Assembly (NCBI GenBank): GCA_025056745.1
Contig: JANWVQ010000164.1
Coordinates: 1-40,760, forward strand
Reading direction: 5' to 3'
DNA length: 40,760 nt
Origin: Ignavibacterium sp.
Lineage (GTDB): Bacteria > Bacteroidota > Ignavibacteria > Ignavibacteriales > Ignavibacteriaceae
In this document: positions 1,963 through 4,880 of the stretch, in pieces
How the letters are laid out: each line of letters opens with the position of its first letter
Position numbering within the stretch: position 1 is the first letter of the stretch
The notes under the pieces: model-generated
What the model was told of the DNA's origin: nothing
Seen by the model: only the letters and a program-made list of their open reading frames with translations
Databases searched by the model: none
Program-made: the position numbers and the translations under genes

Positions 1963-2919
1963 TTAAAGATTCATATCATCTTCAATCGTATTTAGAATTC
2001 TTAAATAACTTTCATATCTAATTTCAGAAATTAAAGAATCTCTTACGGCTTTGATTACTGCACAACCGGGTTCGTGATGATGAGTACAAGTGTTAAATCT
2101 ACAAGCATTAATAAAATTTCTAAAATCAGGGAAAAAATGTCCAAGATCCTCTTTTTTTATTCCATAAGGTTCAATTTCTCTAACCCCCGGAGTGTCGATT
2201 ATGTAAGTATCATCTCCCATAAAAAACATTCTACTTGTAACTGTTGTATGTTTACCTTTCATAGTCGAATAACTTATTTCAGACACTTTTAAGTTCAAAT
2301 GAGGATAGATTTTATTTAATAAAGAAGATTTTCCAACTCCTGACGGACCCCAAAATAAACTTTTTTTTCTTTGAATGATATTTTCTAAGACGTCGATATT
2401 TTGATTCGAAACAGTGGATGTTGGCAAAGTAAAGTAACCTATTTTTGTATAAAAGCTCGTCCAGTAACTAACGATTTTACCATCATCGAGATCGGATTTG
2501 TTGATAATTATATTACAATTCAAATTTGAACTTTCACAAGTAACAAGAAATCTATCAATTGTTTTATTATTAAATGTTGGCTCTGATACGCTGGAGACAA
2601 TAAAAACCTGATCAATATTAGAAGCAACAATTTGTTCAAGTCTTTCACCTTTAAAACTTGAGCCCCGAATTTTGGGTGCTTTTCTGGAAAGATAGTTTTT
2701 TCTTTGATGTATTTGAAAGATTATTCCTGAGCCATCTGGGTTTAGTTCAAACTCTACCTCATCACCCACTACTGCAATATCTGTTTGAAATAATTTGTCT
2801 TTCTTTAGATTAAATTCTTTTTTGAACTTGCCTTTAATATAACATCTGAATTCTTTGTGTTCAGGTAAAGAGAGAACATAATAGTCTTTACTCTCTACTC
2901 TTGATATTATTCCTTTGAT
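1963..2919 (-). CDS. rsgA: RsgA, 30S-maturation GTPase, probable AUC start
   Basis: A circularly permuted GTPase that acts on the 30S subunit late in assembly. With the start proposed here it has 318 residues: an OB-fold (1-65), a GTPase domain in permuted order with NKSD (140-143), GPSGVGKSS (191-199) and DTPG (242-245), and a zinc knuckle with Cys273, Cys278, His280 and Cys286. The first canonical start codon is a GTG at 2769, but it falls inside the OB-fold (VVGDEVEFE) and would remove about 50 residues. The frame stays open upstream and encodes IKGIISRVESKDYYVLSL, matching the usual MKG-type start of the family with ATC in place of ATG. A TAG stop lies four codons upstream, and AGGAG sits six bases before the ATC. 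I therefore place the start at ATC 2919-2917. A base error there is the main alternative. Confidence 0.85.
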   Translation of the reverse strand: MKGIISRVESKDYYVLSLPEHKEFRCYIKGKFKKEFNLKKDKLFQTDIAVVGDEVEFELNPDGSGIIFQIHQRKNYLSRKAPKIRGSSFKGERLEQIVASNIDQVFIVSSVSEPTFNNKTIDRFLVTCESSNLNCNIIINKSDLDDGKIVSYWTSFYTKIGYFTLPTSTVSNQNIDVLENIIQRKKSLFWGPSGVGKSSLLNKIYPHLNLKVSEISYSTMKGKHTTVTSRMFFMGDDTYIIDTPGVREIEPYGIKKEDLGHFFPDFRNFINACRFNTCTHHHEPGCAVIKAVRDSLISEIRYESYLRILNTIEDDMNL

Positions 2920-2925
2920 CTTTTT

Positions 2926-2930
2926 CTCCT
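2926..2930 (-). promoter_or_regulatory. Shine-Dalgarno AGGAG that sets the rsgA start
   Basis: AGGAG on the minus strand, six bases upstream of the ATC at 2919-2917. It overlaps the in-frame TAG (2931-2929) that closes the reading frame. No ATG, GTG or TTG occurs between this TAG and the GTG at 2769, so this site supports initiation at ATC. Confidence 0.7.
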
Positions 2931-2983
2931 AAATTAAAAAACGACTTATCGAAAATATTGCCTGAGTAGATATTCTGCAAAAA

Positions 2984-4396
2984 TTAAAATCGATAGATTG
3001 TGGTAATTATAACTTTGTGATACTTAATATCTTGAAAAGTTCTTGATAGATTTGATCCATAGTTGTCGCCAATATCTTTCCACCATCCATAAGCGTAACC
3101 GAAATCAATTCCAATGACACCCTCAGCGAGAATTCCAATTCCTGCAGTTAGATATTTTTTATCGAAATTAGGTGAGTCGTTTTCAAAAGGAGACTTTTGT
3201 AAGATATATCCGCCTCTTAATCTTAAATTCCATAACGGTAAGGTATATTCTCCTCCAAAACTGTAATTTAGTGTTGGTCTCAGTAATGATTTTATTTTCT
3301 TATTCTGGTCAGAAATATATGATTGCGAAATTCCTTCAGCGTTAGTGAATTCAAGCTCTGTATAGTTTATGTAGTTCAATTGACTACTTAAAATCAACCC
3401 AGCAATATTTATTGATAGACCTCCCGCAACTTCAAATGGAGTTTTTATATCATATTTGACTTCATCACTATACTCTTTGGACTCAAGATTTGTAGACCAA
3501 TTCGCAAATTTACTTTCACCTTCGACTATAAATTTTTCTTTTATTGTGAAAGTTTTTGGAAATTGGACTGTAATTCCTAACCTGCCAAGGTTACTGAATT
3601 GATATAGAAAACCTACTTTTGCATTCCATCCCTCCAAGTCCCACTTTAATAAATTCTTTAAGTAAAAAGACCTAAAGTCTAAAGTTTTGGGATGGCCTGC
3701 TGCAGTTATTCCTTGGTAAATATTTTTTGTATCATCTTCATAGTAATCGAAATCAGACGAGAAATTACCAGAGATAATTGAAAGATTAGCACCAATGAAA
3801 AAGTTTTTATAAGCTTCAATTGAACCCGTTAATGTCCAACTATTAATAGAACCAGAATTAAGTATGTTTCCGCTTTGGTTTAATTTACCATTGATAATTG
3901 TATTTCCGTCATCATCTGTTAAAAAAAGGTCATAGGGAATATTTGTATTAAGCAGACTTTGAATTTTTGAGTTATTATTTGGATTATAACCATCGAATTG
4001 ATTACTACCAATCAAATCTTTATTGGAATTATAAGCCAATCCAAAAACTAAGCTTCCTCTTATTGTTGGAATTGGAAAAGTAAAGCTTGCATTATTCAAC
4101 ATTGTTTGACTAGCATTGCTGTTAGTTTTATTCCCAAAGAAAGTTGTGGTGTTGTTAAAACTTGTTATATCTAATCCGCCCATAAATTCAAGTCTTTTTA
4201 CAAGTCCAAGTCCTGCAGGATTAAAAAAGGAGGCGGAACCATCATCACTTAAAGCAATGTAACTGTTTCCCATTCCTAAAGCACGGGCATTATTCCCAAG
4301 TCCAGGAAATCCTACTCTTATTGCATCATTATAGTTTTGAGAGTAAATATTTATTGATGCGAATAATAAAAGTGATATAATTATTCTTATGAACAT
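2984..4396 (-). CDS. Outer-membrane beta-barrel, OmpP1/FadL/PorV-like
   Basis: A 470-residue outer-membrane protein. After a signal peptide ending near INIYSQ, the mature N-terminus has the block ARALGMGNSYIAL followed by SASFFNPAGLG, shared by the OmpP1/FadL/TodX and PorV/PorQ barrel families. The rest is alternating hydrophobic/polar strands with Asn- and Gly-rich loops, ending in an aromatic residue (IYRF) as barrels do. A longer reading frame from 4438 overlaps the upstream lipoprotein; I prefer the ATG at 4396 because AGGAG sits just before it and a clean signal peptide follows. Its start lies one base after the upstream stop, indicating coupling in a three-gene operon. Fatty-acid or hydrophobe transport and a PorV-like T9SS role are both possible, and the sequence does not decide. 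Confidence 0.75.
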   Translation of the reverse strand: MFIRIIISLLLFASINIYSQNYNDAIRVGFPGLGNNARALGMGNSYIALSDDGSASFFNPAGLGLVKRLEFMGGLDITSFNNTTTFFGNKTNSNASQTMLNNASFTFPIPTIRGSLVFGLAYNSNKDLIGSNQFDGYNPNNNSKIQSLLNTNIPYDLFLTDDDGNTIINGKLNQSGNILNSGSINSWTLTGSIEAYKNFFIGANLSIISGNFSSDFDYYEDDTKNIYQGITAAGHPKTLDFRSFYLKNLLKWDLEGWNAKVGFLYQFSNLGRLGITVQFPKTFTIKEKFIVEGESKFANWSTNLESKEYSDEVKYDIKTPFEVAGGLSINIAGLILSSQLNYINYTELEFTNAEGISQSYISDQNKKIKSLLRPTLNYSFGGEYTLPLWNLRLRGGYILQKSPFENDSPNFDKKYLTAGIGILAEGVIGIDFGYAYGWWKDIGDNYGSNLSRTFQDIKYHKVIITTIYRF

Positions 4397-4397
4397 T

Positions 4398-4880
4398 TTA
4401 TCTCCTTGGGTTTTCAGAATTTCTGTTTCCATTTTCATTTCTAATTGAGTTTGAATTATTCCCAGAATTTGAATTATTTCTATTAGAGTTTTCAGATGTT
4501 GAATTAATTCTTGATCCGGAATTAGTTTGTGAATTAGAGTTGTTATTATTTCCGGATTTTGTTGTTATTGGCGGATTATATTCAGTCGTTCCAGAGTTTC
4601 CACGTTCGAATATTATTCTTTCGCCAACCTCATTTCTTATGTTTGAGGAGTTTCGTTCTCTTTCTTTGATTTTATTAAAACTTTGAGAAGGTTTATAAAT
4701 GTTTATAGGATTACTTATCCACCAAGGGATAATGTAATATTCATAATAATCTCCAAAATACTCAGAATCATAAAATTCATCTTGGACATAAGTAGTTGGC
4801 ATTTCTTTATCAGGAAGCCAAACGACTGTGTAGCATCCAGTTAAAAAAATTGAAATAATTAAGAATGATAAAATTTTCAT
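4398..4880 (-). CDS. Asn/Ser-rich lipoprotein, unknown function
   Basis: A 160-residue lipoprotein with a type II signal peptide (lipobox LTGC, Cys16). The mature part starts CYTVVWLPD, continues as an acidic Tyr-rich stretch (about 30-60), and ends in a low-complexity tail of Asn, Ser, Gly and Arg (about 95-160). No enzymatic motif is visible. The N-terminus resembles that of the preceding gene (both LTGCYT), suggesting duplicated lipoproteins. AGGAG precedes the ATG, and the start overlaps the upstream stop as ATGA. The disordered tail suggests a surface or periplasmic linker, but this is inference only. Confidence 0.75.
   Translation of the reverse strand: MKILSFLIISIFLTGCYTVVWLPDKEMPTTYVQDEFYDSEYFGDYYEYYIIPWWISNPINIYKPSQSFNKIKERERNSSNIRNEVGERIIFERGNSGTTEYNPPITTKSGNNNNSNSQTNSGSRINSTSENSNRNNSNSGNNSNSIRNENGNRNSENPRR

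Follow-up and report, generated by a model that had tools for sequence, protein, structure and literature searches.

The Start of the rsgA Coding Sequence

The question raised by this locus is whether rsgA is translated from an AUC codon in the window, by which is meant the whole stretch of 40,760 nucleotides of Ignavibacterium sp. DNA that was analyzed, and what such a start would mean for the production of a ribosome assembly GTPase. Around the putative start the minus strand reads AATT TAG GAG AAA AAG ATC AAA GGA ATA ATA TCA AGA. It had been claimed in a preliminary description that the rsgA frame opens at a TAG and contains no ATG, GTG, or TTG for 50 codons, and that ATC AAA GGA, with AGGAG six bases upstream, stands at the usual place of MKG. 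On rereading of the sequence the TAG was found at 2931–2929 and the first canonical codon, a GTG, at 2769–2767, 50 codons 3' of the ATC; the ATC AAA GGA and the AGGAG were both read as described. At this codon f13, a related family within the class, reads ATG AAA GGA. The features of the locus are as follows.

1963..2919, minus strand: rsgA coding sequence, 318 codons plus stop (TIGR00157, RsgA_N, RsgA_GTPase; single copy in the genome)
2767..2769, minus strand: GTG, earliest canonical start in the rsgA frame and the codon that a standard gene caller would choose; rejected as the start
2917..2919, minus strand: ATC start codon of rsgA, aligned with the ATG of the f13 family; ATH in almost every Ignavibacteriales ortholog
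2926..2930, minus strand: Shine-Dalgarno (SD) sequence AGGAG, six bases from the ATC; duplex with the anti-SD, −7.3 kcal/mol
2929..2931, minus strand: in-frame TAG that closes the rsgA frame, four codons 5' of the ATC, read from the sequence
2952..2957, minus strand: TATTTT, predicted as the −10 element of the promoter of rsgA
2975..2980, minus strand: predicted −35 element TTGCAG, 17-base spacer; weak here, TTGACA or TTGACT in many relatives
2984..4438, minus strand: OMPP1/FadL/TodX-type outer membrane protein, the 5' neighbor of rsgA (PF03349)

The open reading frame 2919–1963 encodes RsgA (YjeQ/EngC), a circularly permuted GTPase (TIGR00157, 230.9 bits against a cut-off of 100), with the Pfam domains RsgA_N and RsgA_GTPase. 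The N-terminal OB domain, the G4-G1-G3 motif order (NKSD, GPSGVGKSS, DTPG), and the C-terminal Cys/His zinc motif of the family are all present, and these motifs are invariant or nearly so in the ortholog alignment. Many Ignavibacteriales genomes also contain a second, longer RsgA-like protein, mostly of about 355–365 residues and some 35% identical, for which canonical start codons are available (L172–L178, e.g. G071:C39 and G005:C1:2487595); the genome of the window has one RsgA gene, the AUC-started one, and lacks the longer protein. The gene 3' of rsgA (613–1920) encodes a member of the isochorismate synthase family (TIGR00543, 298 bits).

Alignment of the rsgA starts of relatives, which had been proposed as a check on the claimed AUC start, gave a consistent answer. 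In a table of 85 Ignavibacteriales orthologs from three families, one per genome and with G028 left out, the same codon is non-canonical in 78, being AUH (AUU, AUC, or AUA) in 76 and GTC or GTT in 2, and is canonical in only seven (six ATG, one TTG); 77 of the non-canonical orthologs come from 43 genera. When distinct loci are counted, the aligned first codon is ATT (34), ATC (23), or ATA (22) in 79 of 84. One ortholog (G090) was scored as ATT, as the nearby ATG belongs to its SD sequence (ATGGAGG). On the tree, at least 29 substitutions at the third base exchange T, C, and A, and none yields ATG at that position; six changes between canonical and non-canonical starts are also placed on it. 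The f13 orthologs have ATG AAA/AGA/AAT GGA at exactly the rsgA start codon, with no SD; this family branches inside the order on a long branch, and the tree does not fix whether AUG or AUH is ancestral. Outside the class, canonical start codons are available at the RsgA N termini of the sampled Bacteroidota, and the E. coli gene starts with TTG. The apparent GTC or GTT starts follow AAAGGTGA and occur in one genus (L180 in G012 and L231 in G037); such starts are rare, with one precedent known to us, Streptomyces sigR.

The interval between the preceding stop and the AUH codon is free of ATG, GTG, and TTG in 62 of the 78 non-canonical orthologs, and in 47 of those 62 at least 20 codons separate the start from the next canonical codon; in one locus (L023) a TGA is the codon immediately 5' of the ATC. 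An internal Ile codon in a protein that starts further 5' is ruled out by the nearby in-frame stops and the lack of upstream canonical codons. A start at GTG 2769, or in each species at its first canonical codon, with the upstream part untranslated, would have the merit that no canonical codon occurs earlier in the frame. Codons 2–49 are nevertheless conserved as protein: dN/dS is 0.01–0.17 in most testable pairs, indicating strong purifying selection (the exceptions are one near-identical pair with a value of 0.34 and three saturated pairs with dN of 0.02–0.12), and these codons can be aligned to the N-terminal domain in RsgA/YjeQ proteins of solved structure. The purifying selection excludes the GTG as the start. 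Furthermore, the next canonical codon lies at a median of 42 codons 3' of the non-canonical start at a position that is not conserved, and the RsgA_N match requires a start at or near the ATC and is lost from the GTG-started version, so that this alternative is very improbable. A sequencing or assembly error, either a misread ATG or a base lost before GATCAAAGG, is more improbable still: although loss of one T would change AAAAATGATC to AAAAAGATC and the assembly is in 185 contigs, the explanation is refuted by relatives, since 43 genera are represented among the independent genomes with ATH at this codon, complete single-contig ones (G005 and G030) among them.

Translation of rsgA therefore almost certainly begins at AUC 2919–2917. 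This start is strongly supported, at the level of sequence, by its conservation across 43 genera, the near-constant spacing of the SD, selection that extends up to the codon, the ATG of the f13 family, and the short predicted leader.

The Shine-Dalgarno Site and the Predicted Leader

Among the non-canonical orthologs the SD has a median duplex energy of −8.0 kcal/mol and lies 4–8 bases from the start, with GGAG or GAGG present in 64 of 77. The corresponding values are 0.1 kcal/mol and 1 of 14 for the orthologs with canonical starts, and −3.55 kcal/mol and 26% for a background of 410 genes of G005; it should be noted that the contrast between the two groups of orthologs ignores kinship, the independent-pairs test having had too few pairs. 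The anti-SD sequence CCTCC is present in the 16S tails of relatives.

A promoter-like arrangement, TTGnnn-N16-18-TAnnTT, is found in 60 of 85 orthologs with little variation in position (mean of 2.9 and maximum of 8 in shuffled sequences), its conserved form being TTGnnn-N17-TATTTT or TATCTT. In a stricter consensus scan the predicted elements of the window were not picked up, the weak −35 element being below the threshold. The Bacteroidota −7 motif TAnnTTTG is enriched, but was rejected as the sigma-70-like TTGnnn-N17-TATTTT fits better. From these elements, the transcript is predicted to start near 2945, which would give it a leader of about 26 bases with room for little besides the SD.

The OMPP1/FadL/TodX-type gene stands beside rsgA in 64 of the loci examined, and a terminator-like hairpin occurs just 5' of rsgA in 53 of 84. 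In a number of relatives (L002, L003, L007–L009, and others) the loop of this hairpin carries the rsgA −10 element, so that terminator and promoter overlap; at 2930–2980 of the window the hairpin has decayed and the promoter-like elements are kept. A role of the hairpin as a leader structure or attenuator of rsgA was discarded, given the conserved 5' neighbor and an rsgA promoter that spans the hairpin with its −10 in the loop. Most simply, the hairpin would be the terminator of the 5' neighbor gene and would lie mostly outside the rsgA mRNA.

Other AUH Starts in These Genomes

The likeness to infC that was drawn in the preliminary description holds for these genomes, where infC has the same layout and few other such genes exist. 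The infC gene is present in 59 of 59 genomes, and its start is AUH after GAGAGG or GAGG both in the genome of the window, where the codon is ATT, and in 28 of 30 relatives checked. A screen of 2.0 Mb of the complete same-genus genome G005, in which 1256 genes were considered, sought genes in which coding sequence extends beyond the first canonical codon in the 5' direction and follows an AUH (or GTC, GTT, or CTG) with a strong SD. Three genes were convincing (infC, rsgA, and one for a lipoprotein); genes with a close next canonical codon are missed by this screen. In the same genome prfB (RF2; G005:C1, about 477892) appears as extended coding sequence with no canonical start close by, in keeping with its well known programmed frameshift.

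The lipoprotein gene encodes 166 amino acids and is flanked by a second lipoprotein gene and an ftsX-like gene (L371–L382). By eye, its start is ATT or ATC in 10 of 12 relatives' loci; the copy in the genome of the window is L376, at about base 1498 on the plus strand. The ATT overlaps the stop of the preceding gene (TATTAA), an arrangement that suggests termination-reinitiation at AUU. We know of no tie between this lipoprotein and ribosomes, and its conserved AUU rules out a restriction of AUH starts to translation genes.

A Model for rsgA Expression and Its Alternatives

The best explanation of these observations as a whole, with a probability of about 0.6, is that rsgA is translated from a start codon of the type that IF3 discriminates against, compensated by its SD, with output tied to the 30S pool. 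The arrangement suggests that production of RsgA depends on how strictly ribosomes check start codons. The AUC would be read as formyl-methionine, and the gene's own promoter would give rise to a short leader presenting a strong SD that offsets the disfavored codon. As in infC, the combination of a strong SD with such a codon would keep RsgA output low and let it rise when IF3 scrutiny on the 30S is weak, either because there is little IF3 per 30S or because immature 30S binds IF3 poorly, and RsgA, a late 30S maturation factor, would thereby be coupled to the state of the 30S pool. Initiation at non-canonical starts is held down by IF3, which in this way controls infC as well as Streptomyces sigR with its GTC start (PMC5472188), and on the basis of this known biochemistry the rsgA start is probably IF3-sensitive.

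In E. coli, according to PMC10250234, which cites Sharma and Anand 2019, perturbation of 30S biogenesis raises initiation at AUC 2–4-fold and the 30S from strains lacking ksgA or rbfA has a low affinity for IF3. Release of RbfA from the 30S is performed by both RsgA and IF3 (PMC9032327). Feedback through 30S maturation is thus plausible from published E. coli work (PMC10250234), although it is somewhat short of an even chance that the AUH start was selected as such a feedback. The fuller form of the proposal, in which RsgA would set its own dose through start-codon fidelity, is more tentative again: a shortage of RsgA would lead to a buildup of immature 30S, IF3 scrutiny would drop, initiation at AUH would increase, and more RsgA would be made, proofreading acting as the sensor of 30S maturation.

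A constitutively weak start accounts for the sequence equally well as feedback does. The main alternative is that AUH merely sets a constant low dose of RsgA, the SD offsetting the codon with no signal involved and stabilizing selection keeping either AUH with an SD or AUG without one. The canonical-start orthologs, mostly without an SD, are as expected if the changes balance, E. coli rsgA has a TTG that is weak but canonical, and the non-canonical starts of Staphylococcus aureus mainly hold expression low (PMC13009471). However, a weak SD with AUG would be a simpler route to a low dose and yet is the rarer solution in the order, and infC in these genomes is laid out like rsgA. A constant dose is the less likely account, though one to be taken seriously. 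The six AUG-started members of the order and the one started by TTG indicate that the AUH arrangement is dispensable.

It is far less likely that the arrangement is a relic, in which the ancestor of the order acquired AUH and a strong SD by chance and its descendants kept them, with no useful regulation, because AUG beside that SD would overproduce RsgA. Broad retention, with the few changes between canonical and non-canonical starts noted above, agrees with this explanation, but GTC and GTT in two genomes and the many third-base changes show that the codon is not frozen; the explanation also overlaps with that of a constant dose.

Implications

A start discriminated by IF3 remains the preferred reading, and rsgA is best read, from sequence comparison, as a new example of the infC-type start that would work by a known mechanism. 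A ribosome assembly GTPase with an AUH start throughout an order is a natural candidate for control by IF3 in a gene other than infC, and allows direct testing of whether start-codon fidelity is used to sense 30S maturation; if RsgA does set its own dose, a whole bacterial order would have retained a start-codon feedback on a ribosome assembly factor. Gene callers limited to ATG, GTG, and TTG are expected to shorten RsgA in these genomes (here by 50 codons), with loss of part of the OB domain, and other conserved AUH starts are being missed.

Comparison with Known Systems

Very few bacterial genes are known to start with AUU, AUC, or AUA: infC, pcnB, the gene for poly(A) polymerase, and a handful more. 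No report of an AUH-started rsgA was found in open-access papers, the coverage of which is incomplete. The canonical-start RsgA/YjeQ proteins (E. coli, TTG; f13, ATG; other Bacteroidota) belong to the same family and have the same N-terminal domain as the RsgA of the window, but differ in their canonical codon and, in the f13 orthologs, in having no SD. The AUU start of E. coli pcnB, listed as non-standard (PMC4245954), resembles the AUH start of rsgA in belonging to a housekeeping gene, but the pcnB product is not a 30S factor. In S. aureus, infC, cvfC1 (AUU), and ccpN (AUA) have conserved AUA or AUU starts with an extended SD, and reporters showed synthesis to be strongly lowered (PMC13009471). 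Like cvfC1 and ccpN, rsgA combines a conserved AUH start with an extended or strong SD, but those are other genes in another phylum and were confirmed by Ribo-Ret and reporters. Streptomyces sigR is a non-infC gene with a GTC start, an extensive ribosome binding site, and repression by IF3, to which the two rsgA orthologs with GTC or GTT are similar; it encodes a sigma factor rather than a ribosome factor, and its control was shown by experiment, the case for rsgA being made from sequence. The closest parallel is with infC, with which rsgA shares an IF3-discriminated type of start codon, a strong SD, and conservation over a large group; whereas infC is autoregulated by its own product, rsgA, whose dependence on IF3 we infer, would be controlled in trans, through IF3 and the condition of the 30S.
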